In this document: positions 19,340-58,704 of the stretch, piece by piece
Numbering within the stretch: position 1 is the first letter of the stretch
Layout of the letters: each line of letters begins with the position of its first letter
Source of the DNA: Capillidium heterosporum
Lineage: Eukaryota > Entomophthoromycota > Entomophthoromycetes > Entomophthorales > Capillidiaceae
Length of the DNA stretch: 64,000 bases
Assembly: GCA_016630905.1 (NCBI GenBank)
Contig: WBMQ01000010.1
Span: 186,001 to 250,000 of the forward strand
Direction of reading: 5' to 3'
Notes under the pieces: model-generated
Told to the model about the DNA's origin: nothing
The model's database searches: none
The model's input: the letters and a program-made list of their open reading frames with translations, nothing else
Made by a program: the position numbers and the translations under genes

Positions 19340-21037
19340 ATGGTAAAGTTATCCTATCTCTTTGTTTTACTTTCAATTTTGACGGTAGATGGATTCATCT
19401 ACACCTCCTACCAAGGCAAGATCGAATGCTTATCTAAAACCGACATTCAAACTCCACGAAACTTGAACGGGCTGCAGTCGATAGTCCAAAAAGCTGTCAA
19501 AACTAACACCAAGGTAAAAGTAGTAGGCAGTAGGCACTCGGTAACTGATACTATCTGTACTGAAGGTATCCCGATCCACCTTGAAAATTTCAACAAGGTG
19601 ATTCTGAACACCAATGGAACTACTACCAGTTTAGGTAGCAGTTTAGAACTTCTAGATGCTTTGGATGCCTTGCACAACTTGGGGTATGCCTTAAAACAAC
19701 TATCATCCTTCGGAGGTATTGCCCTAGGTGGAACTACAAGTCTAGGAGCTCACGGATCTTCGTTGAAGCATGCCAGTTCTATATCGAAAGTGTTAGTAAG
19801 TGTGACTTTAGTCGATGGCACGGGAAAGTTAATTAAAATTACTGATAAGGACCCGGAACTTCAATGCATTACGGGTGAATCTAGGATTGTTGGGTATAGT
19901 CGTCAAGCTGGAGGTCGAAGTGGTGCCTAGATTCAAGATGCAGATTCACAATTATAGGATCAGCGACGCCATTTTAGTTAGAACCCCGGCACAAGTTTTG
20001 GAGATGGCTAAAAGCAACAATCACTTTCAGTTCTGGTGATTCCCAACCGATCACAGTGTAGCCATCTCCAAAGGCAAATACTACGCCCCAACTGATATTG
20101 TAGAAGGAGATGCTAAGACTAACTTAGTTACTAATGTCTCACCATTCATTGCTGTAAGCACCAACATAGCTGTCGAACTAGTACAAGCCACTAACAATAC
20201 TTCTGGCAATTAAAGCTATCCAAAAGGCCAGCGAGAACGCATTTTACAAGCTGGATGCCAATTACTTGATCAGGGACCCCATATTCTAGGAAGGTAACAC
20301 TAGGAAGTACGTCAACCCAGCCGTTGGCTTTACCTACAAACTCATGACCAATCGGTGTAAAAAATGTCCATGGGACAACCCAATTCCTTTTGCTGATCAA
20401 TTACTCAAGGCTCCAATAGTTCGAGATGTCCCATTCCTACCTTTGACTAAGAAATTACCAGTCCTTATCGATGAATCAGCCTTCGCGTTGAGCATTAACA
20501 AGTTCGAAGCGGTAGTAAAGGATATCAACCAATTGTTTAGAGTATCCCATTCACTTTTTGTTTACTGGTCTGTACTTTCGATTCAGCCCAGCTTCCAAGG
20601 GACTGCTGGCCATATCTGGTGATAGAGAGACTTTCCACATAGATTGGGCCTTCCCAATGCGTAGCAATCCTTATATGGATGCACCATACGGACTGAAAGT
20701 CATGCAGGCACTAAGTCAACTTTTGATCTTCAAGCACGGGGCTAGACCACACTGGGGTAAGAACGGGTTGACTTACTTTCAAAACTCAATCATCGCAAGT
20801 GTTTACAACGAAACTTCTTTAGCTAGATTTAAGAAAGCAGCTAAAAGATTTGATCCATATGGATTATTTAGGAACCGGTTTGGCAATAGGATCTTGGCAG
20901 TTGAAGAAGATGAATTTGACATCCCTAAACGGGTCAAGCGGTGCGCCCTACAGGATTTTTGTATCTGTAACAAGGATTCTGACTGTTCTAAAGTGACGAA
21001 ATGTGGTAAGCTTATGAGTTATTCGGTCTGCAAGTAG
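19340..21037 (+). pseudogene. Secreted GulLO-type FAD oxidase, pseudogene copy 1
   Basis: Aligns along its full length with the intact paralogues at 51107 and 57010. It has a signal peptide (MVKLSYLFVLLSILTVDG), the FAD-binding GSRHS motif, GAHGSSLKH, RPHWGK and a Cys-rich tail (CALQDFCICNKDSDC). It carries at least four disabling changes. One extra base lies near 19855-19862. The second Trp codon of FQFWWFPT has become TGA at 20037-20039. There is an indel near 20200 and an in-frame TAG at 20287-20289. A further frame jump occurs near 20540. Residual similarity stays high, so inactivation is recent. Confidence 0.85.
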
Positions 21038-21942
21038 AGGTTGAATAAGTTATATTGATTTACTTTAAATAAATATGTAGCTTCGTACTAGATCGAACTT
21101 CAGGAATTAAGTAGTAGATTTTACCTAGAGGTAGGCACAAAATGGATGGACATTTACTTGAGTGAGCTATCCCTTTTATAAGATGATGACTAAACCTTGA
21201 AATCCAGATTTATATTGGTAGGGTGGGACTGTTTTTTGCAGATACATCCACCTTGGCCTTATGCTGTCGCTTGTCTCGAACTAACGCTGTAAATGACCTT
21301 TTTACAAAGTAAATTATGTAGTTCTATTAAGGCTGTGACAAAGTTTGTATTATTTCAACAAACTATATGATTGAACTAGATACTCTGAATTAGATTTAGG
21401 CAATAGTTTACCAGTCCTACATTTGAACTAAATGGCTTGTAATCGCTTCTATATAACCTTTGGTACCTTGTTCAAATAGTTTCAATTTTAAACTGAAAAG
21501 ATTAATATAATCGTATGAAACACCAAAATTTTTGAATAAATAAGATTGGTATCAAGATAAAAATATTACGGAATGCAAATTTCTGAGATGAGATTAGTAA
21601 AAAACTTTGCACTTGGTCCAATCAAAAATATACAAGTCGAGCTACTAAAGCACAAATATCGTAGAAATTGTACTATATTGCCTATCCATATTTCTTGCTA
21701 AGCATCCAATCTAGTTCGTATCAATTTATTTGATCTGAACTCTTAATCTACTTTTGTGAAATATTTCATAACTCCAAAACTTACACTAATACTACATTAT
21801 AAAATTTTCTTTTAATCAACCGTTAGCTTGGCTGGGAACTAGTAAAGATATATGTGAGATACTCCATAACTTATAAATCCACTTTTCAACATTAAATTTT
21901 TAGCATTTACCTTTGAGAGTATGTTAATAGTGAAGATTACAA
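21038..21942. other. Intergenic
   Basis: AT-rich spacer between two oxidase pseudogenes; nothing recognisable. Confidence 0.5.
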
Positions 21943-23555
21943 ATGAATCTTAACTTTGATTCTATTGTTTTGAATCATCACTATCCATACTTTCACCTAT
22001 CGATCTTATCAAGATAAAATCGAATGTAACTCCCAAAATTCAAGAGCATTAGCCAAACTACAGTCGATAGTCAACGATGTAATCAATACCAATACAAAAA
22101 TTAAGGTATTAAGTAGCTTCCATTAAATGAATGATACCATCTGTATTATTGGTACCTTAATCAACCTAAAGTATTTCAAAAAATATGATAGTTTAGCTAT
22201 AGTAGGCACCAGTATCGAACCCGTTGATGCGTTGAACTTGCTATATCATAAAGTATACACCCACTTATGAAGGTATTACGATAGGTGATGCCATAAGCTT
22301 AGGTATATATGGATCTTTGTTGAGACATATTAGCTCTCTATTCGAATATCTAATAAGTTTAATTATGATCAACAGCCAAGAGAACCTGGTCAAATTTGTT
22401 AATAAGGATCTATACTCCGATGCCCTAAAGGTAGGTTTAGGTCTCCTAGGTTTAGTTATTGAGATTGAAATTTTACCACAGTTTAAGGTGCATATAAAAA
22501 CTTATAAAGTTATTGAAAACTTCTGGGCAAATATACTTTTAAAATAGTAGATATGGCTCGTAGCCACAGCTGATTTCAATTCTGGTAGCTCCTGGCTATC
22601 AAATGGTTAATTATTTCTGAAGATACCTACTATAATTTCAATCAAAAAGTAAAAGATTTTCAATCTAATTTGATCTCAAATTTGATTCTATTTATCGTAT
22701 TCATAACCAACATCTACTTTGAACTCGCTCAATTCTTCCAAAGGTGTGCTGGGAATGTTTTATATCGATAGGAAATCTCCTGTTTGGTTTCAGAGACGGT
22801 GTTCATCGCTCCTAACAGTAAAAAGCTGACCAGCGTAGCTATAGGTTATGCCTATTGACTCATAGTCAACAAGTGCTCACAATGTTCTTGGGACGATCCC
22901 ATCTCAACTACTTTCAATCTCTTCTAAAACCCTGTATAAAAGACTTTCCATTCATATCTTCATTGATGAAAGCGGGGGTTCTACTCGATGAACCTTTCTT
23001 TGCTTTAAATATTGATAAGTTGGAAGATATATTTTATGATATGAACCAATTATTCCATAAACACCCAACTGAATTCCCGCTGATAGGCTTGCCCTTCTAA
23101 TTTAATAAGCCGTCTAAAGGGCTGTTGATTCAATTCAAAATGTGTGAGACCTTCAGTGTGGAGTGGACTTTCCCATGTGCTGGAGCCCTTATACTACTGT
23201 ATCTTACGCTCTAGATGTCATGCAGGCTCTGATCCAAATGCTAGTGCTCAAACATAGGGGATGATTTTACTGAAGTAATAATAGCCTATCACTTCTTCAC
23301 TGACTCCATATTAAAGGAAAACTACAACATTAGCTTTTTAATAATGTTTAAAAAGCTACTATATGGTACGATCTTAACTACCTATTTGAAAATAGATTGG
23401 TGACTGTATATTGAGTACCAACCGAAATATCCTTAGACTCTTCAATAAAGTTCAACATTGTGCTGTAAAAGATCACTATATATGCTCCAAGGACTTTAAT
23501 TATATCTATTTATATAGCTGTAGGGGATACTAAGAGCTACTCGATATGTAACTTG
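21943..23555 (+). pseudogene. Heavily decayed GulLO-type FAD oxidase, copy 2
   Basis: Short blocks in shifting frames match the family in order. They include a leader followed by YRSYQDKIECN-like sequence, a block with IVNDVINTNTKIKV, the GDAISLGIYGSLLRH region, and VGLGLLGLVIEIEI with LPQFKVHI. Later come DEPFFALNIDKLEDI with YDMNQLFHKHPTEFPLIGL, and a Cys-rich tail. Many stops and indels interrupt these blocks, and HWGK is lost. This copy is much older than copy 1. Confidence 0.75.
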
Positions 23556-24271: not shown

Positions 24272-25965
24272 TCACATACAGACCGGATACCCCATAATAC
24301 TGCTACAACTAGTTGAAGTAGCACAATCTGAGTCCTTGGAACATATACAGTAATCCTGGATAGCACAGTGTCTGACCTTATCAGAAACATCATACTTATC
24401 TCCGCCTTGACTTAAGATACGATTACCAAACTTATTACTAAAAAGACCGTTGGGATCAAACCTTTTAACAGTCTCCTTAAACTTTAGCAAAGAACTTTGC
24501 GGATACGAATCCCTGATAATGGAGCTACCGAAATAGGCCAGCCCGTTCTTACCCCAGTGCGGACACCCTCCGTGCTTGAAGATTAAGATTTGGGTCAACG
24601 CCTGCATAACTGAGAGCCCGTATGGGGCAGTCATAAAGGGATCGTACCGTTCAGGGTAGGACCATTCGATGTAGAAGGTATCTTGATCATTGGACAATGC
24701 TAGCAATCCTTTGGAGGAGAGGCTGAATCGAAATAGCAGACCTATAAGGGGAAATTCAGTTGGGTACTTGGTGAACAAGTTGGTTGAGGTCATGAACTAC
24801 TGCCTCTAACTTTGTGATATTCATAGCTATCTCATACTCGTCAGATACTACTGCAAGTTTGGTCTGCGGTGTCACAAAAATAGTGTCGACGTAAGGCAAT
24901 TTAGGTAAATCCTCAGCTGTTGGATAAGAACCGTACCATGAGCAGTTGGTGCAGCGGTTTGACATAAGCCGGTAAGAGTACCCAATTGCTGGGTTGACCA
25001 GCTTCCTGCTGGTACCCTGGGTAAATATAGGATCCCTTACCAGATTGAGGAAGTCCACCTTATACAGCGAACTTTCTGTCGCCCTTTGGAAGACTGCTAG
25101 AGCCCTGGTGTCGTTGGTAGCTTGGTAGTGTTCAAAAGACAGGCTTGAGCTCATAATTATAAAAGGGGGTAGATTGGGGATCAAGTTTACTTTGGCGTCC
25201 CCAGAAACTTCGGCATTCGGTAGAAAGTCTATACCTTCCGAAATTACAAGCCCGCGGTTTGTAGGGAACCACCAGAATTGAAATACGTCATTCTTCCTAG
25301 CCATAGTCAACAGTTGAGTAGCGTTTTCCAACAACAATCTGTCGTGGACACGGTAGTTGTGGATTTTCATCTTATATCTGGGTACCACTTTGATCTCGAC
25401 TTCGGTGATAATGCCTAGTAGGCCGAAATTTACCCTCAGTGCATCAAAGTCGGGATCTTCTTCGTTGACTTTCATAAGCTTTCCCTTACCGTCAATTATT
25501 GTCAATCCTACTACATAATCTGACAAAGTAGCTGGATGCTTCAACGAGGAGCCATGGGCTCCAATGCTGATAGCTCCACCTACGGTTATACCACCAAAGG
25601 CTGGTATCTGCTTCAAGGTAAAACCTAGGTCATGTAAAATGTCCAGTAGATCCATGAGTTGCAAGCCAGTTCCAACTGTAACCGTTGAACTTTCTTTGTT
25701 GAGAACGACTTTTTTGAAATATTTAAGGTGGATTGGGATGCCATCAGTACAAATGGTATCGGTCCCCGAGTGTCTACTACCTACTACCTTTACCTTAGTA
25801 TTGCTACTGATTGTCCTTGTCTACTATAGATTGTAGCTCGCTTAAGTCGTTAGGAGTTTGGATGGAAATTTGAGACAAGCATTCAATCTTGCCTTGGAAA
25901 GAGGTGTAAATAAACTCAGTTACCATCAATGAAGGAAGTAGAGCAAGTATGAACACAGTTTTCAT
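24272..25965 (-). pseudogene. GulLO-type FAD oxidase copy 3, two frameshifts
   Basis: Read on the minus strand from ATG 25965 (MKTVFILALLPSLMV, a signal peptide) it covers the whole family length. Two single-base frame changes break it. One lies near 25800-25822, just before the GSRHS motif. The other lies near 24775-24782, between DLNQ and LFTKYPTEFPLIGL. Between them 300 codons stay open with family motifs (GAHGSSLKH, FQFWWFPTN). The C-terminal part retains PHWGK, but with Cys in place of the Arg before it, and CALQ/IQDYCICSKDSDC. The rest is well conserved, so this is either a young pseudogene or an intact gene with two consensus errors. Confidence 0.75.
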
Positions 25966-28139: not shown

Positions 28140-29842
28140 ATGAAGTTTTCAAATTTAATTACCATACTCCCGGTGTTGGCGATCCAAGTTCAAGGGTTCA
28201 CCTACAAGAGTTACCAGGAGAAGATTGAATGTCAATCCAAGACAGCAATCCAAATCCCCAAAGACCTAACCGAACTACAGAATTTAGTCAACAAAGCAAT
28301 TGCCACCAACACCAAGGTCAAGGTAGTAGGTAGCCGCCACTCCATCACCGACACCATCTGCACCGACGGCATCCCCATCCACCTCAGCAACTTCAATAAA
28401 GTAGTCTTGAATAAGGAGGATTCCACAGTAACCCTAGGCACCGGTTTGGAGCTCATCGACGCTATGGATGTCTTACATAGCCAAGGCTACACTATCAAGC
28501 ACATCCCCGCCTACGGTGGTATTACGGTAGGCGGAGCCATAAGCTTAGGAGCCCACGGTTCGTCGTTGAACCATCCCAACAATCTGCCTGAATACCTAGT
28601 AGGCCTAACTATGATCGACGGCACCGGCAAGCTGGTAAAAATTACCGAGCAGGACCCCCACTTTGACGCGCTGCGGGTGAACTTAGGTCTCCTAGGTATA
28701 GTTGTCGAAGTCCAGCTTAAAGTAGTCCCTCAGTTCAAGATGCGTGTCCACAACTACCGCGTGACTGATGACATCCTAGTCAAGAACACTACTCAGTTGG
28801 TAGACATGGCCCGTCAAAACGACTGGTTCCAGTTCTGGTGGTTCCCCACAAACCATGGATTAGTCATCTCCGAAGGTAAGTACTACGACTCCAGCCAAAA
28901 TGTCCCTGGAGATGCCCGTACCAACTTGATCTCCACTGTATCCCCCTTCATTGCCATCGGTGGCAAGATCGCCTTTGAATTGATCCAGGCTACCAACAAC
29001 TCCTTTGCCATGCACGAGATCCAAAAGTTGACCGAGAACTCCTTGTACAAGTTGGATATAGCAGTACTGGCAAAGAACCCCGTGTTCACTGAAGGTACTA
29101 CCAAAAACTTTGTCAATCCAGCTGTCGGTTACGCTTATAGATTGATGACCAACAAGTGCAAAAGCTGTCCATGGGAGGATCCTTTTAAGCTGGATGCCAA
29201 CCTGTTAGCTTCACCTTTGGACAACTCCATTCCCATGGAGACTTCATTGGCCGCCTTAGCCGTCTTACCTGACGAATCCTCAATTGCTTTGAGCCTCTCC
29301 AAACTACCAGGCTGTTCATCGCCGACATGAACAAGCTTTTCAAAGACTATCCAACTGCCTTTCCGCTTATTGGTCTCTTCTTCCGATTCAGCCCTGCTTC
29401 CAGAGGATCCTTGGCATTGTCCAGTGGTCAAGAGACCTTCCATATCGACTGGACTTTCCCTATGCGCTTAGATCCTTTCCTTACTTCACCTTACGGCTTG
29501 AACGCCATGCAAGCTCTGATCCAACTTTTGGTCTTCAAGCACAATGGACGCCCTCACTGGGGTAAGAATGGCTTATACTACTTTAAGAACAGTATATTGA
29601 AGGCTTCGTACCCTGAAGCTAACTTGAACAAGTTTAAAGAGGCAGCTAGTCGATTCGATCCCAACGGTCTGTTCAGCAACAAATTTGGTAACCGAATCTT
29701 GGGTGTTGGCCAAGATGCTTTTGAAATTCCTAATAGAGTTATCCATTGCGCCCTACAGGACTACTGTGTCTGTTCCAAGAAATCAGACTGTTCGTTGCTG
29801 CGAAGCTGTCAAAAGATTGGTGAGTTCCCGGTCTGTCAATAA
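28140..29842 (+). pseudogene. GulLO-type FAD oxidase copy 4, frameshifted twin of copy 5
   Basis: For the first 360 or so residues this is identical at the protein level to the intact copy on the minus strand at 51107-52807. The frame closes early (396 residues) because two extra bases, near 29311 and 29316, break the segment after LSKLP. The rest of the protein, including RPHWGKNG and the Cys-rich tail, is open in another frame to 29842. A block at about 29158-29222 differs strongly from the twin (CPWEDPFKLDANLLASP against CPWENPINLDIDLLAPP). Either a very recent pseudogene, or two consensus errors in a functional gene. Signal peptide MKFSNLITILPVLAIQVQG. Confidence 0.85.
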
Positions 29843-31582: not shown

Positions 31583-32728
31583 ATGTATGCTGGAAAATAT
31601 TATTCAATCGATATTCAAACAAGATGGTTAAACAACTTTATTTCGATAGCTTTAGTTGGTATTAATGATTTAGTAGCAGTCACCATCTCAAATGCAATCA
31701 GCACCAGATCTTATATATACGTAAGCGACAAGGCAGAGATCCAAGCCAAAGCTTTGACAGTTTACCAAGGTTTGATTTTCAGTCCTGAAGATGATATGGA
31801 AAGTAGAGCTACTTTCACCAACCCATTTACTAATATCTTGTTACAAGATCTTAAGAACTTATCTCTACTGATCTTAACTCAAGATTTTACAAGCCTTTCA
31901 TCTACAAACCATCTACCAAGTTAAATAAACTCCGCATTTCCAAACACAAAAAGTACTCCCACTGTTTTCTATCTCCATATACTATAAAGATTCAATTCTA
32001 GGTCAAAGTTATGGGTGTCAGGACCAACTTATCAATATGTCAATAGTTAATAACGAGGACCTTAATATCTTAGTGGCAATCAGGATCAATGATGCTTGAA
32101 AGTTAATAGTTGTCTCCTATCAAGCTTTTCTTACTGTTCAGGACTGGATCATCAACCTGAAATACTCCATGATAAATTACCCTTATCTTTCGGAAAGTAT
32201 TAAAGTATATCACGAGCTCCTTTTCAACAATTTATCATCTACAATCAGATATTATGCATAGTAAAATCACCACTTGTAAATCCTCAGTCCAAAGGCTATA
32301 TCTTACATGTCACCGATTACAGTAAAAGGGTCTCTATGGCTACGCTATCCTTACCTAAATGGATTAAGCTTTTGAAGAAGCTTTGTGACACTAGATCAAT
32401 AGTTACCTATGCTTACTTTAACTCTAGAGTTGGAAATAATGGGTTCGCTTAGTGTCTATACAGTTTAGATGTCTCAATTATGAGGTACAGCAATCAGAAT
32501 AACGTAGTACTATATCTACCTCTTAGGCTGGATTGCTTTACCTATGCCGGTAATGAGATCAATGAACGTAGGATCAGAATTTTGGAGATACCGAGTTGGT
32601 GGTATGTAGCCAAGGTATATACGACGAGAATCCAATATACTGATTAGAAGGACAAGACTCTCATCTCTATTTTAAAGTATGTCCTCCCTATGAACATCCT
32701 ACCTGTTTCTATCTTTTGTACTTGAGTT
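31583..32728 (+). pseudogene. Decayed class-3 lipase
   Basis: The first 113 codons are open and match the propeptide-like repeat of the intact lipase at 33928 (SDKAEIQAKALTVYQG, TNPFTNILLQDLK). After the stop at about 31924 the catalytic part is recognisable only in fragments: SYGCQDQLINMS, VSYQAFLTVQDWI, and the serine region around ITDYSKRVSMATLSLP. The GxSxG motif has become DYSKR, so this copy could not be active even if the frame were intact. In-frame stops and indels occur throughout. Confidence 0.75.
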
Positions 32729-33927
32729 AATAAAATATAGTTAGTTTACGAAATATAACTATTCAATCCATTCATTTTACTTTTATTCTTGCATCAGTTT
32801 ATATATCGCTCTATAGTTTTATATTGAAAGTAGCTCCTAGAAACTCATTTTGAATTTCGACTTGAAAACAGGGATATATTTTATTTAATATAATGTGCTT
32901 GACCTTGTAGTGAACTGCTTTTCAATTGCTAGTTTATTATTTCACTATAGATTGTACTTTCAATACGAACGAATCGATACAAACCTAAATCTGATAAACT
33001 GTAAGATATATAATTTTCATTAGGATAAATTAGTTGCTTTCTAGCCTACTATCGGGATGCCGGAGGCAGCTGAAAATCGGTCCGAAGTCCTCGGCACTAG
33101 AGAAGACCGTTCCGTCAACAAGGTATCACCTGTAATTTCCAACACAAATTCACCTCACAATACCGCTTAACTATAACTTTTATTTAATATAGATGAAGGA
33201 TACATCCTTTGATGGAATATTTATACCTTGAATAGGTAAAATTGATAGTTTCATAAAGTTAACAAACCACATTCCAATACTTTTAAATTTGTTCCACCTC
33301 CCAAACCTCTTGAAAGATGGACCCTACATCCTACCTAGTAGGTCTACTGAGTTCTTCAAATATAGACCTCTGTCTAGACTTTCTTAGTTCGATAGACCTG
33401 TAATCAATTATTGCCCAACAGCTGCCTTAGGGTTGCTTAGGTTTGGAAGATTCTTTACTCAGTATACTCGGTTGAACAAATCCTAATAGTGTGCTACCTA
33501 CTAAAGTTGATAGCTTATGTTTATAAGACTTCGATAAGAGATAGCTAAATGGATAGTTTGACAAATTTCTTCCAGTTTACTGGCTCGTGGGGCTATAGTT
33601 TAAATGCTTGCCAAAATCTGCCACTTGTATAATTTTATTGTATATTCGGATACTCCATAAATTTTGGCGACTCCGTGGAAATTATTGTGGACTAATACCT
33701 TTTTAACTACGCCTTGTAATAATATAGACAAAAATGCTTCTAATAAGTGATATATTTCCTTAAAAGTAAGTATAGCTTCGGGATGCTTAAAATTCCATTA
33801 CTCCTAATAAACAGCCTCTCATTTAATATATCCATGTATCCGTGCTGGAAGCTTAAAGGTACCTGGCTTGATATCTATAAATGGTATAAATGCAGGCTGA
33901 AGACTTTTAAGTTTGTAGGCAAGGGGA
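32729..33927. other. Intergenic, promoter side of intact lipase
   Basis: Homologous to the flank of the decayed copy. TATAAA-type elements at 33876 and 33885 lie 40-50 bases before the ATG. The short open stretch at 33747-33941 overlaps the promoter and is not considered coding. Confidence 0.5.
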
Positions 33928-35292
33928 ATGGTCAAAACTAACTTTATTTTGATAGCTCTAGCCAGTATAGCTGGTATTTCAGCACCCACCACAACAAATG
34001 TAACCAGCAGTCTATCCTATCCGTTGGTAAGCAACCTGATAAAGATCCCAACCAGAACTTTAACGGTCCACCTAGATTCAACCCTCCGTACCAAAAACAG
34101 TTTGGAAGGTAGAACTACCACCACCAATCCTCTGATCGGTACTGTCCTACAAAGCCTCAAGGATCTGCTTTTGCCAATTCTAGATCGAAATCTCTACATG
34201 CTTTTTACCTACAAGCTGCATACCAAATCAAACATAACCAGTGTTAGATCCCAACCATTTGTAAGTGATAAGGCAAAGATCCCGGCCCGAGCTACTCTGG
34301 TTCATCGAGGACCAACCTTCGATCCAAAAGACAGTTTAACAAGCAGAACCACTGCCACCAACCCGCTGACCAGCACTTTTCTGCAAGGTCTCAAGGACCT
34401 GTTCCCACCGAAGCTAGATCAAGATCTCTACAGGCTTTTTATTCAGAAGCCACCTATCAAGCTGGCCAAATACCGCACTTTCAAGCATGGAACTATTGAT
34501 GAACTCAAGAAACACTTTCCACTATCTCTCATCTCTATCTGCTCCAAGGAAACGATCTTAAATAAGAGCTGTGGGTGCCAGGACCAGCTTACTCACTTGT
34601 CGGTGGTTTCTAACGAGGGTTTCGATACTTTGGCAGTAGTTGGAGTTGATAAAGTTCAGAAGTTGATAGTTGTCTCCTACCGGGCCTCTTTTACCTCTCA
34701 GAATTGGGGTAATAACTTGAGATGCCTTATGGTGGACTACCCCTACTTGTCGAAGAATGTTAAAGTACACCATGGGCTCCTTTCTGATTACTTGTCCATC
34801 TACAGCCAGGTGTTGAGCCAGGTAAAGCCATTACTCGCCAATCCTCAGTTCAAAAAATACACCTTGCACATCACCGGCTACAGTAAAGGGGCCGCTATAT
34901 CTACCTTATCTCTACCTAATTGGAGTAAACTTCTAAAAAAGCTTGGCGATAGTAGGCCTATAGTAAACTACGCCTACTCCAGTCCTAGAGTTGGAAACGA
35001 TGGGTTCGCTCAATACCTATACAATCTCAACATCCCAATTACAAGGTACAGTAATCAGAACGATGTAGTACCTCACCTACCCCCCAGATCGAATGGCTTC
35101 GTCCACGTTGGTGGTGAGATCCACGAACGCAAAGTAGGAATACTAGGAAAGACTGAATTGGTAGTTTGTGGTCAAGGGGTCTATGACGAGAATCCAGAGT
35201 GTGGTTGGAGGAATAGATACCCTGTCTCCATTTTAAAGCACGTCTTACCTATGAATTCCTTATCCATATCTACCTTCTGTATAAGTCAATAG
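33928..35292 (+). CDS. Secreted class-3 lipase with duplicated N-terminal region
   Basis: Extracellular triacylglycerol lipase of the fungal class-3 (Rhizomucor-like) type. 454 residues, no intron, signal peptide MVKTNFILIALASIAGISA. The catalytic Ser sits in GYSKG (ITGYSKGAAIS), the Asp in SNQNDVVPHLPP and the His in FVHVGGEI, matching the family order and the Pro-rich loop. Before the catalytic domain lie two diverged copies of a unit of about 65 residues (about 31-96 and 111-174), each with a KIPxR..T.H..T core and TNPL..T.LQ.LKDL. This is probably a propeptide. The decayed neighbour has only one such unit. Lys instead of the common Leu/His within GxSxG is unusual but present in related enzymes. 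Confidence 0.88.
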   Translation: MVKTNFILIALASIAGISAPTTTNVTSSLSYPLVSNLIKIPTRTLTVHLDSTLRTKNSLEGRTTTTNPLIGTVLQSLKDLLLPILDRNLYMLFTYKLHTKSNITSVRSQPFVSDKAKIPARATLVHRGPTFDPKDSLTSRTTATNPLTSTFLQGLKDLFPPKLDQDLYRLFIQKPPIKLAKYRTFKHGTIDELKKHFPLSLISICSKETILNKSCGCQDQLTHLSVVSNEGFDTLAVVGVDKVQKLIVVSYRASFTSQNWGNNLRCLMVDYPYLSKNVKVHHGLLSDYLSIYSQVLSQVKPLLANPQFKKYTLHITGYSKGAAISTLSLPNWSKLLKKLGDSRPIVNYAYSSPRVGNDGFAQYLYNLNIPITRYSNQNDVVPHLPPRSNGFVHVGGEIHERKVGILGKTELVVCGQGVYDENPECGWRNRYPVSILKHVLPMNSLSISTFCISQ

Positions 35293-36717: not shown

Positions 36718-37546
36718 ATGATGTACTCCTCCACCTACAAAGCTCTATTCGCCACTCTCATCACCTGCGTAGCCAGCCACATGGAGATGAAATCCCCTCC
36801 TCCTAGATCTTCCCAATTCAACAAGGCTTACGGTGCCGTCGATTATAGTATGAATTCGCCTTTAGGTACCTTCCCCTGCAAAGGATTCGCAGCCGGTCCT
36901 AGTGTTGCCACTTACCAAGCCGGTTCCTCGATCCCCGTTGAATTGTTGGGTACAGCCACTCACAACGGTGGTCACTGCCAGTTCTCTCTAAGTTACGACG
37001 GTGGTAAAACCTTTGTTGTCATCAAGACTATTATGGGTAACTGTATGATTGACAGCCTGAACTACTCGGTCCAGATCCCCGACTCAGCCCCCAGCGGAGA
37101 CAAAGTTGTCTTTGCTTGGTCTTGGGTCAACAAGACTGGAAACCGTGAGTACTACATGAACTGCGCCGATATTACCATCAAAGGCACTGCCAATGGTAAG
37201 ATCACCGGTCCTAAAATGTTGGTCGCCAATTTGCCTGGCTACCCTACTATCCCCGAATTTACCAACGGTGGTTACGACGGTAGTGATCTCTACTCCAAGA
37301 TTGAATCTATTACTGTTGGTGGTAGTGGGGGTAGTGCTCCTGCTCCTGCTCCTTACCAAGTTCAACCGGTTGCTCCTCCTCAAGCTAAGTTAGCCGAGGA
37401 AGCTAAGCCCGAAGCTAAGGTCGACAACTTTGCTCCTAACTTGTTGAAGGACCCTAATCCAGAAGCAACCACCTGTAGATTACAGCAATGTCGATTACAG
37501 CAAGACTGATTTCTCCAACGTTGACTACTCCAACGTTAAGTTTTAG
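36718..37546 (+). CDS. AA11-like LPMO, second copy, frameshifted tail
   Basis: Closest to the LPMO at 1996. Residues 1-20 form the signal peptide (ending CVAS). His21 and His82 are the histidine brace and Tyr146 (NREYYMNC) the axial ligand. The catalytic domain is complete to about residue 195. The frame as read ends at 37509 (263 residues) in an implausible tail. One extra base near 37471-37474 accounts for this. The alternative frame gives VDYSNVDYSKTDFSNVDYS and ends at 37546, a clear short repeat. As in the first copy, the break is in the low-complexity C-terminus and the enzyme domain is untouched. Secreted, likely chitin-active. Confidence 0.87.
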
Positions 37547-39710: not shown

Positions 39711-40706
39711 ATGGTCAAATTTACCTCCACTCTGCTATGCGCCTTGGCCTTTGCTGCCTCTGCTTTCGCTCACATGGAGATGGGAACCCCAACTCCCAGA
39801 AACTCAGTTCGCAACCAGCTGTTCCGTGGTGAACCCGACTACAGTATGACTGCTCCTTTAGGTGCTTTCCCTTGCAAAGGTTACCCAGCCGGTCCCAGCG
39901 TCGCAACTTTCAAGGCTGGTTCCTCCATCCCAGTCAACATCATCGGTGGTGCTCCTCACAATGGTGGCCACTGCCAGTTCTCTTTGAGTTACGATGGTGG
40001 TGCCACCTTTGTCGTCATCCACAGTGTCATGGGTGAATGTCTGCGTGGTGCTGGTAACAGCTTCTCAGTAAAGATCCCCGAATCGGCTCCCAGCTCCGAC
40101 AAAGTTGTCTTCACTTGGACTTGGGTTAACCGTACCGGTAACCGTGAGTACTACATGAACTGCGCCGACATTTCCATTGAAGGTACTGCTAACGGTTCGA
40201 TTACCGGCCCTAAGTTGACTGTCGCCAACTTGCCCGGTTATCCTACTATCCCTGAGTTCACTACTGGTGGTTACGACGGTTCCGACATCTACGCCCAGGC
40301 TCCTACTATCACCGTTGGTGGTAACGGAAGCCAGCCTCAGCCCATCCCCCCTAAGGTTCCTTCCCAGTCCCCTGTTACTTCTGCTGCTCCTTCTTCAACT
40401 TACTCTCAAGCTCCCGCTCCTTCCCAGTCCCCTGTTACTTCTCAGACTTCTATCCCTTCACCTGCCTCCTCTGCCTACTCCCAGGATCCCGTTTCTCCCA
40501 TCCCTACTCCCGCTACCACTTCCTATGTTGTTGAGAAGCCCAGTACTTCCGCTGTTCCTTCCCCAGCTCCCGTACCCAGCCCTTCTGTCCAGCCTATCCC
40601 TCCTGTAGGTGGTAGCTACGACGACGGTCACTGGGACGCCAAGAAGTGGGGTTACGATGCCTACAAGAACAAGTACGACGACGGTTCCTACAAGGTCCAC
40701 TACTAA
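39711..40706 (+). CDS. AA11-like LPMO, third copy, intact with Ser/Pro-rich tail
   Basis: 331 residues in one exon. Signal peptide MVKFTSTLLCALAFAASAFA is followed by His21. His83 in APHNGGH completes the histidine brace and Tyr148 in NREYYMNC is the axial residue. Conserved Cys in FPCKGY, GHCQFS, GEC and MNC suggest two disulphides. After about residue 205 comes a Ser/Pro/Thr-rich linker with a repeated SQSPVTS element. A distinct terminal module follows, rich in Tyr/Asp/Lys (DGHWDAKKWGYDAYKNKYDD), possibly a wall- or substrate-binding tail. Codons are strongly biased to C-ending forms, unlike the surrounding DNA, which suggests high expression. AATAAA at 40798-40803. Confidence 0.93.
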   Translation: MVKFTSTLLCALAFAASAFAHMEMGTPTPRNSVRNQLFRGEPDYSMTAPLGAFPCKGYPAGPSVATFKAGSSIPVNIIGGAPHNGGHCQFSLSYDGGATFVVIHSVMGECLRGAGNSFSVKIPESAPSSDKVVFTWTWVNRTGNREYYMNCADISIEGTANGSITGPKLTVANLPGYPTIPEFTTGGYDGSDIYAQAPTITVGGNGSQPQPIPPKVPSQSPVTSAAPSSTYSQAPAPSQSPVTSQTSIPSPASSAYSQDPVSPIPTPATTSYVVEKPSTSAVPSPAPVPSPSVQPIPPVGGSYDDGHWDAKKWGYDAYKNKYDDGSYKVHY

Positions 40707-43822: not shown

Positions 43823-44626
43823 TTAATTCAAAAACTTGTTGATAAACTCAAGGTACCCACTGATTTTAGTAAACACAGTTGGAGCCCCTTTGATGGCACA
43901 AGCCTCTCCAAACGAAGTAATACCAACTAAAACGTAGTTGCCCTTTCTTTTTACAAACAGTGGACCACCTGAATCGCCAGAACAAGCGTCTCTCCCACCT
44001 TGACCTCCAGCGCAGATCTGCTTATCTTCAACTATACCATACCCTTGATTGTTCCAATAGTTGGAACAGTTCTGGTGACTTACCACTGGGATTACAATCT
44101 CATTCAAAACATCAGAAATACCTGAAGTTGTGGAAGTCACACCCCATCCAATTGCAGTAACGTAGTTGGAGGCATTTACTAGATCATCATGTTGATCCAA
44201 TCCGATAGGTCTAAAGTTGTAAGTTTTATTCGACCTTATCGTCCAAATAGCTATATCGTTGATATTTCCAAGTGCTTGGTAGTTTTCCATATCTATAGCA
44301 ACAACTTCAGCTTCAATACCACCTTCCTCTTTAGAGGATAAAGCCAAGTTGTGTCGATGGATAAAGGCTTTATATTCAGTTACCCTCTTACTGGGTGCAC
44401 AGTGGGCTGCTGTCAGAACCTTGGTTGGCTTGAGTAGAATACCGCCGCAGGTATGGAAAGTTCCACTGACGCTGGATTTTTGTTGAATGGATACCATCCA
44501 ACTGTATTTGAACTTTGGTATGACTTCATGCCCACCAACTATCTGGATCGTTGGTAAAGTTTGGCTTAGGATGGTTGATAGGAGGTTTAAAAGTAAAATT
44601 GTGAGGATGTAGGTTTGTATATGCAT
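43823..44626 (-). CDS. Secreted trypsin-like serine protease
   Basis: 267 residues, intronless, S1 family (chymotrypsin fold). Signal peptide of about 22 residues (MHIQTYILTILLLNLLSTILSQ), then a short propeptide and the mature start IVGGHEVIPKF. The triad is complete: His in LTAAHC, Asp in NDIAIW and Ser in GDSGGP. The residue six before the Ser is Asp (GGRDACSGDSGG), the trypsin S1-pocket residue, so cleavage after Lys/Arg is expected. Paired Cys around the His and Ser are present. Trypsins are typical secreted proteases of insect-associated and some early-diverging fungi. A TATATATA stretch lies 30-45 bases upstream (44660-44672). Confidence 0.93.
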   Translation of the reverse strand: MHIQTYILTILLLNLLSTILSQTLPTIQIVGGHEVIPKFKYSWMVSIQQKSSVSGTFHTCGGILLKPTKVLTAAHCAPSKRVTEYKAFIHRHNLALSSKEEGGIEAEVVAIDMENYQALGNINDIAIWTIRSNKTYNFRPIGLDQHDDLVNASNYVTAIGWGVTSTTSGISDVLNEIVIPVVSHQNCSNYWNNQGYGIVEDKQICAGGQGGRDACSGDSGGPLFVKRKGNYVLVGITSFGEACAIKGAPTVFTKISGYLEFINKFLN

Positions 44627-45539
44627 TTGAATTGGTGTTTAGTAGTTGAGAAAGTATTTCCTATATATATAGTGGTGTAGTTATTATCATGTATATAGGG
44701 TTGTGATATACGCTATGTTAACCCTCGATCCATGTGGTTTAGATAACATGCAGGTTGACCCTACAGCTTATATATTTCATATTTTAGTACCGAGATGTGG
44801 ATAGGAAATGGAGCATAATACTACCATTTACAGGGATTTATTGAAGTATAAGGTATCTAAAACGTGTCATCCGAAGTATAGCGTAAAAAATCAACCATAT
44901 GGTTCATCATTTGAACCGATATTTACTTTTTTAAGGTATGAATGAGAGTGGTTATCAGTAGATGGAGTTCTACTAAGCTTATAGCAAGACATCGTTTACT
45001 ATTTCACTTGACATCCAAGCATAAATATACTTGAAAAGTATATATATAGTAGTATATAGATTGAGTTTCAATTGTTTTTAATCACAAGTTGTTTATATAA
45101 CTATAGTAAGCTTTGATTAAAAGTTGATATCCGTGCAAAATGGTTCTAATACTCATTACAACTAATTAGCACTAACTTTGACTTTTGTTTGCTTTGAGTA
45201 GTCAAATCAGCTTCGTATCAAAGGCCTAAATTTTCTACAATAGAAAGCTACGACAGATGGTATAGGCTATAAAAGCAGGTGGTTCATTTTATTGTATCAA
45301 AATTGAAGATACTCGGATAAAATTTTGAAAAATACATTTAGTTTTGCCAAAACTACAGCTTAAAATTGCTCATTAAAGTTTCTATAAAAGATGCCAACAC
45401 ATCCCTATTAGAGGTTTCCTATAGCTAGAAAGGAATGTACAATTCATTTGCTAAAGATAGTTCAAAAGAACTCAAAGTGAACTTTGATTGGGTAGTTTAG
45501 GCTTGGGAGGTTTGCTCATCACCATCTCAACAGACACAT
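44627..45539. other. Intergenic
   Basis: AT-rich upstream region of the trypsin gene; no other feature recognised. Confidence 0.5.
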
Positions 45540-51106: not shown

Positions 51107-52807
51107 CTACTGACATACCGAGAACTCATCAATCTTCTGACAGCTTGTCAACAACGAACAGTCTGATTTCTTGGAACAGACACAGTAGTCCTGTAGGGCG
51201 CAATGGATAACTCTATTAGGAATTTCAAAAGCATCTTGACCAACACCCAAGATTCGGTTACCAAATTTGTTGCTGAACAGACCGTTGGGATCGAATCGAC
51301 TAGCTGCCTCTTTAAACTTGTTCAAGTTAGCTTCAGGGTACGAAGCCTTCAATATACTGTTCTTAAAGTAGTATAAGCCATTCTTACCCCAGTGAGGGCG
51401 TCCATTGTGCTTGAAGACCAAAAGTTGGATCAAAGCTTGCATGGCGTTCAAGCCGTAAGGTGAAGTAAGGAAAGGATCTAAGCGCATAGGGAAAGTCCAG
51501 TCGATATGGAAGGTCTCTTGACCACTGGACAATGCCAAGGATCCTCTGGAAGCAGGGCTGAATCGGAAAAAGAGACCAATAAGCGGAAAGGCGGTTGGAT
51601 AGTCTTTGAAAAGCTTGTTCATGTCGGTGATGACAGCTGGTAGTTTGGAGAGGCTCAAAGCAATTGAGGATTCGTCAGGTAAGACGGCTAAGGCGGCCAA
51701 TGAAGTCTCCATGGGAATGGAGTTGTCCAAAGGAGGAGCTAGCAAATCAATATCCAAGTTGATTGGATTCTCCCATGGGCAGTGCTTACACTTGTTGGTC
51801 ATCAATCTATAAGCGTAACCGACAGCTGGATTGACAAAGTTTTTAGTAGTACCTTCAGTGAACACGGGGTTCTTTGCCAGTACTGCTATATCCAACTTGT
51901 ACAAGGAGTTCTCGGTCAACTTTTGGATCTCGTGCATGGCAAAGGAGTTGTTGGTAGCCTGGATCAATTCAAAGGCGATCTTGCCACCGATGGCAATGAA
52001 GGGGGATACAGTGGAGATCAAGTTGGTACGGGCATCTCCAGGGACATTTTGGCTGGAGTCGTAGTACTTACCTTCGGAGATGACTAATCCATGGTTGGTG
52101 GGGAACCACCAGAACTGGAACCAGTCGTTTTGACGGGCCATGTCTACCAACTGAGTAGTGTTCTTGACTAGGATGTCGTCGGTCACGCGGTAGTTGTGGA
52201 CACGCATCTTGAACTGAGGGACTACTTTAAGCTGGACTTCGACAACTATACCTAGGAGACCTAAGTTCACCCGCAGCGCGTCAAAGTGGGGGTCCTGCTC
52301 GGTAATTTTTACCAGCTTGCCGGTGCCGTCGATCATAGTTAGGCCTACTAGGTATTCAGGCAGATTGTTGGGGTGGTTCAACGACGAACCGTGGGCTCCT
52401 AAGCTTATGGCTCCGCCTACCGTAATACCACCGTAGGCGGGGATGTGCTTGATAGTGTAGCCTTGGCTATGTAAGACATCCATAGCGTCGATGAGCTCCA
52501 AACCGGTGCCTAGGGTTACTGTGGAATCCTCCTTATTCAAGACTACTTTATTGAAGTTGCTGAGGTGGATGGGGATGCCGTCGGTGCAGATGGTGTCGGT
52601 GATGGAGTGGCGGCTACCTACTACCTTGACCTTGGTGTTGGTGGCAATTGCTTTGTTGACTAAATTCTGTAGTTCGGTTAGGTCTTTGGGGATTTGGATT
52701 GCTGTCTTGGATTGACATTCAATCTTCTCCTGGTAACTCTTGTAAGTGAACCCTTGAACTTGGATCGCCAACACCGGGAGTATGGTAATTAGATTTGAAA
52801 ACTTCAT
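51107..52807 (-). CDS. Secreted GulLO-type FAD-linked oxidase, copy 5 (intact)
   Basis: 566 residues, single exon. Predicted to oxidise an aldonolactone or related sugar with O2, giving H2O2; the real substrate is unknown. Signal peptide MKFSNLITILPVLAIQVQG. The FAD (PCMH) domain holds GSRHS with His67, the expected covalent FAD site in this superfamily, and FGG/YGGITVGG with GAHGSSL. An ALO-type C-terminal domain holds RPHWGKNG and FDPNGLFSNKFGNRILG. The Cys-rich end CALQDYCVCSKKSDC is typical of plant L-gulono-1,4-lactone oxidases (GulLO), not of the yeast arabinonolactone oxidase. It is nearly identical to copy 4 on the opposite strand. Strong GC-ending codon bias suggests high expression. 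Confidence 0.9.
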   Translation of the reverse strand: MKFSNLITILPVLAIQVQGFTYKSYQEKIECQSKTAIQIPKDLTELQNLVNKAIATNTKVKVVGSRHSITDTICTDGIPIHLSNFNKVVLNKEDSTVTLGTGLELIDAMDVLHSQGYTIKHIPAYGGITVGGAISLGAHGSSLNHPNNLPEYLVGLTMIDGTGKLVKITEQDPHFDALRVNLGLLGIVVEVQLKVVPQFKMRVHNYRVTDDILVKNTTQLVDMARQNDWFQFWWFPTNHGLVISEGKYYDSSQNVPGDARTNLISTVSPFIAIGGKIAFELIQATNNSFAMHEIQKLTENSLYKLDIAVLAKNPVFTEGTTKNFVNPAVGYAYRLMTNKCKHCPWENPINLDIDLLAPPLDNSIPMETSLAALAVLPDESSIALSLSKLPAVITDMNKLFKDYPTAFPLIGLFFRFSPASRGSLALSSGQETFHIDWTFPMRLDPFLTSPYGLNAMQALIQLLVFKHNGRPHWGKNGLYYFKNSILKASYPEANLNKFKEAASRFDPNGLFSNKFGNRILGVGQDAFEIPNRVIHCALQDYCVCSKKSDCSLLTSCQKIDEFSVCQ

Positions 52808-54308: not shown

Positions 54309-56048
54309 ATGACAAAAGCAACTATGAGCATTTGGAAGTTAGTACTAGTACTTCCCATCCTAACGATCCACTCCTTCACCTATAACTCCTATCAAGGTAA
54401 GATCGAATGTACTTCAGAAGCTGCAATCCAAACTCCAAGGACGCTACAAGAGCTACAATCGATAGTCAACGATGCCATCAATACCAACACCAAAGTCAAG
54501 GTAGTAGGTAGCCGTCACTCTATAACTGATACTATATGCACCGATGGGATCCCTATCCACCTCAGCAACTTCAACAAAGTTCTCTTGAACAGACAAAGTG
54601 GTACAGCGATTTTAGGTGCAGGCATTGAGCTCATCGACGCATTGAATAGGTTACATGAGCAAGGTTATACTATTAAACATATGGCAGCTTTTGGTGGTAT
54701 CACGATTGGTGGTGCTATAGGCCTAGGTGCTCATGGGTCCTCGTTGAAGCATCCCAACTCACTATCCGAGTACCTAGTGAGTGTTACCATGATTGATGGA
54801 GCCGGAAAGTTAATTAAAGTTACTGATCAAGATCCTGATTTTGATGCTGCAAGAGTAAATTTAGGTCTCTTGGGTATAGTTGTCGAAGTGGAAATTAAAG
54901 TAATACCCCAGTTCAAAATGCGTATGTACAACTACCGAGTTTCCGATAAACTTTTAATTGAAAGTCCCAGTAAATTGATAGATATGGCCCGTAGCAACGA
55001 CTGGTTTCAATTCTGGTGGTTTCCTACCAACAATGGTCTAGTTATCTCGGAAGGTACCTACTATGATGCAAGTGTCAGAGTCAGTGGAGATGCAAGGACT
55101 AACTTAATCTCCAACTTATCCCCTTATTTAGCCATAGGTTCCAAGGTCGCCTTTGAAATCATCCAAGCTGCCAATAACTCTTTAGCAATGAATGAAATTC
55201 AAGATCTGACTGAAAGTTCGTTGTACAAGGTGGATATAGGTGTTGTACTCAAGAGTCCAGTGTTTACCCAAGGTACTTCAAATCAATTCGTCAACCCTGC
55301 TATTGGATACGCTTATCGATTGATGACTAATAAATGTACCAACTGCCCCTGGGATAACCCTCTACCGATTATCGATAGTTTGTTGAATTTACCTTTAGTT
55401 AAAGATATCCCGTTGGTGCCTTCTACAAACATACTTGCCGTCCTACCTGATGAATCCTCGGTTGCTTTAGACTTGAACCGGTTCGAAGATGTCATTCAAG
55501 ATATGAGCTTACTGTTTACTCGATACCCAACTGCGTTCCCACTGATAGGCCTGTTCTTCCGATTTAGCAGGCCTTCTAAAGGGTTAATGGCTATTTCAAA
55601 TGGCCAGGAGACCTTCCACATCGATTGGACTTTCCCTATACGGTTAAATCCCTACAGCACAGCACCTTATGGACTTGATGTTATGCAGGCTTTGATTCAA
55701 CTGCTGGTTTTCAAGCATGGTGGGCGTCCCCATTGGGGTAAAAATGGCTTACATTACTTTAAGAACTCTATAATTTCCAACGCCTACCCTCAAAGCTCTT
55801 TGACAAAGTTTAAAAATGCAGTAAAGAGGTTTGATCCAGATGGTCTGTTTAACAATAGGTTTGGTAATCGCATTTTGGGTATCGGTGAAGATGCTTTCGA
55901 TATCCCTGATAAGGTTGGTCATTGTGCTTTGCAAGACTACTGTATATGTTCCAAGATTTCGACTGTTCTATCTCAACCAGTTGTGGAAAGATTATGGAGT
56001 ATTCAGTTTGTATGTAGAGTAGAAGGATATAAGAGTGTTGGAGTTTAA
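54309..56048 (+). CDS. GulLO-type FAD oxidase, copy 6, altered C-terminus
   Basis: Starts at the first ATG, 54309 (MTKATMSIWK...); 54324 is an alternative that begins right at the signal peptide. All catalytic landmarks are present: GSRHS, FGGITIGG, GAHGSSLKH, FQFWWFPTN, RPHWGKNG and FDPDGLFNNRFGNRILG. After CALQDYCICSK the frame departs from the family. A missing base near 55951-55960 replaces the conserved Cys-rich end, and the frame stops at 56048. In the neighbouring frame the normal ending (DCSISTSC...YSVCM) is present, with a stop at 56015-56017. Only the last about 20 residues are affected, so the enzyme could still fold if the change is real. Confidence 0.85.
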   Translation: MTKATMSIWKLVLVLPILTIHSFTYNSYQGKIECTSEAAIQTPRTLQELQSIVNDAINTNTKVKVVGSRHSITDTICTDGIPIHLSNFNKVLLNRQSGTAILGAGIELIDALNRLHEQGYTIKHMAAFGGITIGGAIGLGAHGSSLKHPNSLSEYLVSVTMIDGAGKLIKVTDQDPDFDAARVNLGLLGIVVEVEIKVIPQFKMRMYNYRVSDKLLIESPSKLIDMARSNDWFQFWWFPTNNGLVISEGTYYDASVRVSGDARTNLISNLSPYLAIGSKVAFEIIQAANNSLAMNEIQDLTESSLYKVDIGVVLKSPVFTQGTSNQFVNPAIGYAYRLMTNKCTNCPWDNPLPIIDSLLNLPLVKDIPLVPSTNILAVLPDESSVALDLNRFEDVIQDMSLLFTRYPTAFPLIGLFFRFSRPSKGLMAISNGQETFHIDWTFPIRLNPYSTAPYGLDVMQALIQLLVFKHGGRPHWGKNGLHYFKNSIISNAYPQSSLTKFKNAVKRFDPDGLFNNRFGNRILGIGEDAFDIPDKVGHCALQDYCICSKISTVLSQPVVERLWSIQFVCRVEGYKSVGV

Positions 56049-57009: not shown

Positions 57010-58704
57010 ATGCAGCTCCATTACTTAATTGCAATACTCCACATTTTAGCTATCAACGCCTTCATCTACAAATCTTACCAAGGTAAGATAGAATGCAACA
57101 GTCAAAATCAAACCCTCATTCCAAAGTCCTTGGAAGAGCTACGATATATAGTCAACGGTGCTATCAAGTCAAGAACAAAGTTGAAGATAGTAGCTAGCCG
57201 ACACTCAGTTACTGATATAATATGTACCGATGGGATCCCCATCCACCTCAGCAATTTCAACAAAGTCATCCTAAACAAACAGAGCTCTACAGCTATCTTA
57301 GGCGCCGGCATGGAGCTTATCGATGCTTTAGATAGGCTACATGAACAAGGCTATACAATCTCTCACCTACCTTCCTTTGGTGGTATTACGGTAGGTGGAG
57401 CTGTTAGTGTTGGTGCCCACGGTACTTCGTTGAAGTACGCCAACTCATTGTCTGAACTTTTAGTAAGTTTAACTCTAATCGATGGCAAAGGAAATTTAAT
57501 CAAAGTTACTGAGCAAGATCCACATTTTGATGCGTTGAGGGTAAGCTTAGGCCTTTTAGGTATAATCGTCGAAGTAGAGGTTAAAGTTGTACGCAGTTTC
57601 AAGATGCGCGTGCACAACTACCGAGTTTCTGATCAGCTTCTGCTCAAGGAGCCCACTAAGTTAATAAATATGGCCCGTACCAATGACTGGCTTCAGTTTT
57701 GGTGGTTTCCCACAGACAACGGCTTAGTTATCTCGAAAGGTAATTTTTTCAGCCCCGATCAAATCGTCCAAGGAGATGCGAGAACTCATCTTTTAACCAA
57801 CGTATCTCCCTTTGTAGCTGCAGGCGGTGGTGTAGGTTTTGAACTAATTCAAGCTCTTAACCTCTCACTAGCTATGAATCTTATGCAGAAATCGACCGAA
57901 AACTCGCTCTACAAAGTGGATCTGGGAGTCTTGATTAAGGAACCCATGTACACCGAAGGTGCCTCCAACAGATTCGTAAACCCAGCAATAGGATACGCCT
58001 ATCGCCTCATGACCAACAAGTGTACTCGATGTCCATGGTTTAATCCCATCCCCATCACCGAAAGTTTGCTGGATCTACCGATAATTAAGGACGTCCCTTT
58101 GGTGCCAACGGTATCCAAGCTAAGACTCATGCCAGATGAGGCATCAGTAGTTGTGGACCTAGCTCGGTTTCCAGCGGTAATTGCCGATATAAACTATCTG
58201 CTAAGTTTGTACCCGACTGCATTCCCACTTGCTGGTCTCTTCTTTCGATTCAGTAGATCGGCCAAAGGGCTGCTATCAGTTTCTCATGGAAGGGAATCTT
58301 TCCATATTGAGTGGTCTTATCCCATACGCAGTGACCCATACAATACTGCACCTTACGGCCTAAGCGTCATGCAAGCTCTGTCCCAGCTTCTCATCTTCAA
58401 GCATGGTGGTCGTGCTAGCTGGTGCAAAAGCAGTTTAGCCTACTTACAAAGCTCTATAATAAGGGATGTCTACGACCAGAATGCTCTGATGAAGTTTAGG
58501 GAGGCAGTCCAAAGATTCGATCCCAACGATCTGTTCCAAAATAAGTTTGGCAATCGCATCCTTGGTGTCGGCGAGGATAAATTTGATATCCCTGATAAGG
58601 CTCGACACTGTGCCCTGCAGGATTTCTGTATCTGTTCCAAGGATTCGGATTGTCCAGCTTCAACTAGATGTGGTAAGATTATGGGGTATTCGGTTTGTAC
58701 ATAA
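57010..58704 (+). CDS. GulLO-type FAD oxidase, copy 7, changed HWGK motif
   Basis: 564 residues, single open frame with signal peptide MQLHYLIAILHILAINA. The FAD domain is well kept: ASRHS (Ala for the usual Gly), FGGITVGG, GAHGTSLK, GLLGIIVEVEVKV. The C-terminal RPHWGKNG motif, shared by the other copies and by the wider aldonolactone oxidase family, reads RASWCKSS here, with the His replaced by Ser. Nearby FDPND replaces FDPNG. The Cys-rich end CALQDFCICSKDSDC is normal. The frame is undamaged and the rest is conserved, so it may be expressed with altered substrate binding or reduced activity. Tandem to copy 6 in the same direction. Confidence 0.9.
   Translation: MQLHYLIAILHILAINAFIYKSYQGKIECNSQNQTLIPKSLEELRYIVNGAIKSRTKLKIVASRHSVTDIICTDGIPIHLSNFNKVILNKQSSTAILGAGMELIDALDRLHEQGYTISHLPSFGGITVGGAVSVGAHGTSLKYANSLSELLVSLTLIDGKGNLIKVTEQDPHFDALRVSLGLLGIIVEVEVKVVRSFKMRVHNYRVSDQLLLKEPTKLINMARTNDWLQFWWFPTDNGLVISKGNFFSPDQIVQGDARTHLLTNVSPFVAAGGGVGFELIQALNLSLAMNLMQKSTENSLYKVDLGVLIKEPMYTEGASNRFVNPAIGYAYRLMTNKCTRCPWFNPIPITESLLDLPIIKDVPLVPTVSKLRLMPDEASVVVDLARFPAVIADINYLLSLYPTAFPLAGLFFRFSRSAKGLLSVSHGRESFHIEWSYPIRSDPYNTAPYGLSVMQALSQLLIFKHGGRASWCKSSLAYLQSSIIRDVYDQNALMKFREAVQRFDPNDLFQNKFGNRILGVGEDKFDIPDKARHCALQDFCICSKDSDCPASTRCGKIMGYSVCT

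Follow-up and report, generated by a model that had tools for sequence, protein, structure and literature searches.

L-Gulonolactone oxidases of plants (GulLO; the Arabidopsis group, represented by TIGR01677 and PF22906) combine a VAO fold with an ALO domain. Fungal Alo1 and animal GULO carry FAD_binding_4 and ALO domains, and plant GLDH, a mitochondrial enzyme, has Leu in place of the His which binds flavin adenine dinucleotide (FAD) and Ala at the gatekeeper position. More distant relatives are the bacterial alditol/xylitol oxidase (AldO, 2VFR), of about 420 residues, and the berberine-bridge-like oxidases, with an FAD_binding_4 domain. Passages of a study of a plant GulLO from nectar describe a secreted protein with weak oxidase activity on lactones and sugars, for which hydrogen peroxide (H2O2) production is proposed (PMC6077269). 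Here we analyse a cluster of seven GulLO-like genes, A to G, in a 64,000-nucleotide stretch of Capillidium heterosporum DNA (contig WBMQ01000010.1, positions 186,001 to 250,000; hereafter, the window). The best explanation of the evidence as a whole, to which we give a probability of about 0.7, is an old family of tandemly arranged and inverted genes for probably secreted flavin oxidases, sister to GulLO, in which the frame breaks of copies C, D and F are most likely errors of the assembly and two copies, D and E, have been converted.

Members of the cluster

Copies were located by stop-to-stop reading frames and tblastn. E (51107..52807, minus strand) and G (57010..58704, plus strand) are open from ATG to stop. 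F (54309..56048, plus strand) is open up to the Cys-rich tail and then carries a one-base shift in the last ~20 codons. C (24272..25965, minus strand) has two single-base frame shifts and D (28140..29842, plus strand) a pair of single-base insertions, a short distance apart, around codon 392. A (19340..21037, plus strand) contains three frame shifts and two in-frame stops, and the latter make it probably a young pseudogene. B (about 21943..23524, plus strand) is a fossil with 7-9 frame shifts and many stops; it is the worst copy, and its similarity to E in tblastn is still far beyond chance (E 2.7e-85, summed over pieces). The same search across the whole 29.5-Mb assembly (44 contigs) revealed an eighth member outside the window, a fossil on contig C4 (hereafter copy C4). 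B and C4 are clearly true fossils.

The seven homologous places, and the open, altered, frameshifted or fossil state of each copy, had been proposed from the sequence alone and were borne out by reading frames and tblastn. The motifs GSRHS, GAHGSSL and HWGK and the Cys-rich tail, which this sequence-only reading gave as common to the copies, are indeed present, but not in all: G carries ASRHS, GAHGTSL and SWCK, F is devoid of the end of the tail and the fossil B of several motifs.

Affinity to plant GulLO

Both PF01565 and PF04030 (ALO) are found above the gathering cut-off in E (75.8 and 69.2 bits) and G (69.1 and 33.1 bits), and the predicted model has the fold of the VAO/aldonolactone-oxidoreductase enzymes. 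TIGR01677 is the best-scoring model, yet its 170.1, 138.1 and 160.5 bits remain below the curated cut-off of 383.1, as do the 12.3-18.5 bits of PF22906, the plant third domain, in six fungal proteins (cut-off 27). By these curated thresholds, the window proteins are outside the plant subfamily and appear instead as a sister line.

When aligned, fungal and plant proteins have six tail cysteines in common with few exceptions, as well as PHWGKN, the CPW pair, the GSRHS His and the CTDG Cys; the shared framework reads HSxxxxxC, CPW, PHWGKN and CALxxxCxC...C...C...VC. The variable stretch after the CPW motif is longer in the window copies than in plant GulLO, and E is only 25-29% identical to the plant proteins. 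The likeness of the C-terminus to plant GulLO, already pointed out in the sequence-only reading, was retained in a tail-only comparison of fungal and plant profiles by hhalign (probability 93.7%, score 33.2). The highest scores among shuffled controls were 21.2 (100 column shuffles) and 22.5 (100 shuffles with the cysteine columns fixed).

We then placed the proteins in a tree of 30 rows, including 10 of at least 120 plant matches listed, the other side being made up of two GLDHs, the Alo1 of this genome and two further ALO proteins; the sampling comprises no algae, mosses or oomycetes and no animal GULO. Plant GulLO and fungal proteins group together, apart from the genome's own Alo1 and GLDH, with support 98/97. 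Plants form one clade and the fungi are their sister, not nested inside, while the six non-fossil window copies form a single clade (99/99). The fungal clade near GulLO with lineage-specific duplications that the sequence-only reading had predicted is thus recovered. Seven of 37 rows had been dropped for this tree (three long outgroup branches, two fossils and two partial proteins). With all 37 rows the main split was found again (98/94) and the window group was supported at 77/99; two of the long outgroup branches, P0014 and P0016, were then placed with GulLO.

As judged by these trees, the window family is a lineage-specific expansion which has plant GulLO as its sister and is separate from fungal Alo1, an intracellular enzyme, and its closest non-fungal relatives, among those compared, are the plant ‘L-gulonolactone oxidases’. 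Horizontal transfer from plants is not supported, since neither plants nor fungi are nested in the other group in the tree of the rows described above, both being clades by themselves. A single contig scan with a mixed plant-fungal alignment for a prokaryotic source, a weak one of two short patterns only, returned 22 stretches, none of which was confirmed.

Could the copies be ordinary D-arabinonolactone oxidases of the Alo1 type, serving intracellular erythroascorbate synthesis? PF04030 is above its cut-off, and the public names of two relatives start with D-arabinono-1,4. However, the genome has a separate Alo1 on contig C1 which shares an HW.K motif with the cluster but has neither the cysteine framework and Cys-rich tail nor a hydrophobic N-terminus, and lies on the other side of the tree. 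Grouping with Alo1, named in the sequence-only reading as evidence to the contrary, was rejected when fungal and window proteins were forced together with this Alo1 (approximately unbiased (AU) test, p = 0.003). Grouping with Alo1 plus GLDH was only borderline rejected (AU p = 0.051), a result which detracts from the sister relationship proposed above. We consider an Alo1-type identity very unlikely. The Alo1 gene itself (C1:935741-937093, locus L042) is the only one found, is intron-bearing and carries Leu at the flavin-His position and Gly at the gatekeeper.

Other flavin oxidases are further away. AldO aligned to the predicted model only up to residue 525, and with reticuline oxidase only the FAD domain of G aligns (residues 16-220). 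No BBE domain (PF08031) was detected in E or G, even at E <= 1, an ALO domain being present instead; as a control, PF08031 was found in 3/3 loci scanned on contigs C23 and C32 of this genome, and these berberine-bridge-type loci gave no match to the ALO domain.

A literature search with Conidiobolus and L-gulonolactone oxidase gave no match, and in literature on early-diverging fungi the term ‘gulonolactone oxidase’ was absent among the matches listed; these searches of partial texts do not by themselves establish absence from print.

Age and constraint of the copies

Synonymous sites are saturated in all pairs of copies except D/E, the proportion of synonymous differences (pS) being 0.71-0.83. 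The duplications must therefore be old. We estimated constraint as the ratio of nonsynonymous to synonymous differences on each branch (pN/pS, uncorrected, at codons where two references agree). It was 0.08 for F, 0.13 for E and D, 0.18 for A, 0.20 for C and 0.24 for G, compared to 0.36 for B and 0.41 for C4. A set of 38 columns unchanged in 18 other fungal and plant proteins was used to score the loss of invariant residues. None was changed in E, D, F and C, one in A, three in G, 12 in B and 14 in C4, while three positions were absent from F, one from A, four from B and seven from C4.

By these measures, the cluster copies are old and have been under purifying selection for a long time after expansion, which lends no support to rapid birth-and-death. 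The sequence-only reading had seen exactly this in the cluster, with copies in all stages of decay. Such a picture is borne out neither by the synonymous saturation outside the D/E pair nor by the low pN/pS found even in ‘broken’ copies.

Gene conversion between D and E

D and E are inverted and 21.3 kb apart. Their identity is 99.3% in the first 1019 bases of the coding region and 97.3% in the coding region as a whole, where most 50-base blocks are at 96-100%. In contrast, their flanks are 24-66% identical per 50-base block, apart from the last three blocks at the alignment end (0-8%). Differences within the coding region are unevenly spread. Codons 1-339 show seven synonymous and zero amino-acid differences (synonymous divergence, dS, 0.031), whereas dS is saturated in codons 340-358, where nine amino-acid and 11 synonymous differences have accumulated. 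No difference occurs in codons 359-390, dS is 0.051 in the following 160 codons and reaches 0.85 in the final 15. In D, what we read as an unconverted island lies at 29159..29213 on the plus strand (positions 1020-1074 of the coding sequence); 20 of its 55 bases differ from those of E. Third-position differences are clustered to a degree matched in 0/5000 shuffles, and an identical run as long as the longest one (371) was reached in 10/20,000, although the longest run on third positions alone was marginal (1011/20,000).

One could take the high coding identity for the sign of a recent duplication, segmental or retroposed. The weak similarity of the flanks in most blocks speaks against this, as do the two coding stretches with saturated or high dS next to neighbours at 0-0.05, islands which one single event would not leave. 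A recent origin of the pair is thus very unlikely. Because saturated stretches sit among near-identical neighbours, these patterns indicate that D and E are old inverted duplicates, most of whose coding region has been overwritten by gene conversion.

GC content at third codon positions is 0.58 in D and E and 0.36-0.46 in the other copies. Nearness of codon bias to two HSP70 genes is 0.47-0.48 for D/E, the strongest of the eight copies, and 0.33-0.36 for the others. Both observations fit GC-biased conversion, higher expression, or both. Nevertheless, other window genes and other oxidases have values of 0.34-0.62, similar or higher, so that the codon bias of D/E is unexceptional.

Near-identical inverted pairs are also present in two clusters of berberine-bridge-type genes of this genome, at C32:1895480-1912201 (loci L002-L004) and C23:2580400-2588500 (L048 and L049), with 99.86% identity over 2149 bases and 99.6% over 3410 bases, respectively. 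The genome may favour such exchanges between inverted pairs.

Frame breaks compared with housekeeping genes

By frame-aware alignment, the fossils B and C4 have 7-9 and 5-6 break events, respectively, A has three, C two, and D and F one each; when the DNA is aligned, the event in D resolves into two single-base insertions. Introns were rejected as the source of the breaks in C, D and F: neighbouring pieces overlap or abut, leaving no room for an intron.

As a yardstick, we used housekeeping genes of the same assembly which are expected to be intact. In the HSP70 family, two of six long genes (10.9 kb) are open and the other four have five breaks; these six were retained out of 47 matches after partial and degenerate ones had been dropped, and include rows on contigs C41 and C6 with internal stops (possible introns). 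Of four HSP90 matches, a partial one containing a stop was set aside; the other three, long genes totalling 6.8 kb, are all open. Among three genes for the second-largest subunit of RNA polymerase (3.4 kb of model) one is broken, and that on C23 shows stops and gaps which are possibly introns. CCT and actin genes were kept out because introns confuse the counts. The six background breaks (loci L050-L053 and L056) read as single-base insertions beside conserved residues, judged against what we take to be the HSP70 and RNA-polymerase consensus; three of the six occur at CCC then T. From their motifs, we presume the broken genes to be mitochondrial HSP70, cytosolic HSP70, an HSP110 type and RNA polymerase. 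Breaks were also observed outside this set. The genome's own Alo1 has one frame switch without an intron, and inserted bases disrupt the frame in 2/8 berberine-bridge-type FAD_binding_4 genes, one of which could be compared to a distant reference only.

Copies C to G have 5 breaks in 8.5 kb, compared to 6 in about 21 kb of background (conditional p 0.18, Poisson 0.10). Together with the absence of changes at invariant residues in C, D and F, a break density not clearly above that of housekeeping genes leaves ‘all stages of decay’ unsupported as stated. The breaks in C, D and F most likely reflect single-base errors of a noisy assembly consensus, the genes themselves being probably intact, and consensus indels are to be suspected throughout this genome.

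Several observations weigh against this interpretation. Breaks in C to G are about two times as dense as in the background, which leaves room for a measure of real decay, and when A is included (8 in 10.2 kb) the difference is sharper (conditional p 0.052, Poisson 0.010). The shift in F is a deletion, not an insertion, and whether some of the other breaks are classed as insertions or deletions varies with the reference. Moreover, alignment of the near-identical pairs of the other oxidase family has zero gaps over 2149 bases and one over 3410; random indels at such a rate would produce more, unless errors coincide in both copies.

The density with A included and the scarcity of gaps in those pairs, with the plain presence of the breaks in the given sequence, are points one would raise for rapid birth-and-death, according to which C, D and F are real recent pseudogenes heading towards the state of B. 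That copies do die is evident from B and C4, and A has its two in-frame stops. Against it stand the synonymous saturation, which makes the duplications old, the low pN/pS and unchanged covered invariant residues of C, D and F, and similar breaks in HSP70-family and RNA-polymerase genes. On balance, we regard real recent decay of these three copies as unlikely.

Alternatively, the breaks could be programmed +1 frameshift sites, the genes being intact as they stand. Breaks of the same sense do recur in presumably essential genes, half of them in the CCC-T context. But this context is lacking at the other three background breaks and at the cluster breaks, and three HSP90 and many FAD_binding_4 genes are fully open. 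Most inserted bases can also be taken as one extra letter in an adjacent run, a pattern that consensus errors produce (judged by eye, and with the exception of the RNA-polymerase break). Programmed frameshifting is therefore extremely unlikely. What the present analysis adds to the sequence-only reading is the conversion of D/E across most of the coding region, and probable consensus error behind much of the apparent decay.

Predicted active site and secretion

His67, the flavin position, is found in 8/8 copies. In a profile alignment, position 123 of E, opposite GLDH Ala113, is Pro. This gatekeeper Pro, together with the flavin-position His, occurs in 10/10 plant rows, and the Pro in 10/11 public fungal rows. 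Pro at this position may be a mark of oxidases in the superfamily. The cluster proteins also have a hydrophobic N-terminus, read by eye.

Gatekeeper Gly is described as oxidase-enabling, and is paired with the flavin-binding His in fungal and animal enzymes, in passages of one study (PMC11099136); the corresponding passages of a review on the gatekeeper do not state which residues mark an oxidase (PMC7312611).

From these features, the family would most likely consist of secreted covalent-FAD oxidases producing H2O2. FAD would be held through the conserved His67 and an aldono-lactone or sugar would be the substrate oxidised. Re-oxidation of the flavin by O2, permitted by Pro123 at the gatekeeper, would then yield H2O2. 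The proteins would be exported, with disulfides between the shared cysteines, and D and E would be kept alike by gene conversion.

Three points count against this reading. The gatekeeper Pro is lost in F (Ala), A (Ser) and C4 (Leu). The signal peptide is putative, being judged by eye. Finally, contrary to a covalent-FAD mechanism, the authors of the nectar GulLO study found no flavin in their protein, according to the passages concerned (PMC6077269).

In G, the PHWGKN loop is changed to ASWCKS: Lys475 is kept while Pro471, His472, Gly474 and Asn476 are lost, with constraint maintained elsewhere. G may either have an altered substrate or chemistry, or be on its way out. An altered copy also occurs outside this genome: in the public relative P0007, the flavin-His site is occupied by Tyr, the gatekeeper by Gln and the His position of HWGK by Asn.

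Implications for the GulLO family

The plant-type family of the NCBI model (pln_FAD_oxido) thus appears to have a separate constrained clade in several early-diverging fungi, which bears on the origin of the poorly understood plant GulLO family, and an uninterrupted fungal reading frame is now on hand for testing its chemistry. A much broader and improbable possibility is that ‘plant’ GulLO did not originate in plants but is an ancient eukaryotic lineage of secreted oxidases, rich in disulfides and producing H2O2, which early-diverging fungi have retained and which has expanded here; its peroxide may feed the copper LPMO-like proteins of the window. If so, the keepers would be the chytrid, Calcarisporiella, mucoromycete and Entomophthorales relatives, and the expansion would include a conversion-linked pair as well as one copy whose active-site loop has been remodelled. 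As to method, a claim of birth-and-death calls for a prior comparison of the apparent gene decay with housekeeping genes of the assembly, and gene conversion alone can make paralogues look young.

Other genes of the window and genome

Three related LPMO/BIM1-like proteins are encoded in the window, at 1996-2727, 36721-37506 and 39708-40703. The first matches LPMO_10 just above the cut-off (23.8 vs 23 bits), the second PF20238 and PF03067, both just under their cut-offs, and the third gave no domain match at E <= 0.001. One class-3 lipase and two trypsin-like proteases lie beside the oxidases, at 33934-35289, 43823-44635 and 60063-60842, and a second stretch, 32012-32736, resembles the end of the lipase gene at 68% identity. 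Elsewhere in the genome, several divergent, stop-containing HSP70-like stretches on contigs C44 and C2 are apparently the decayed remains of an old expansion of this family.

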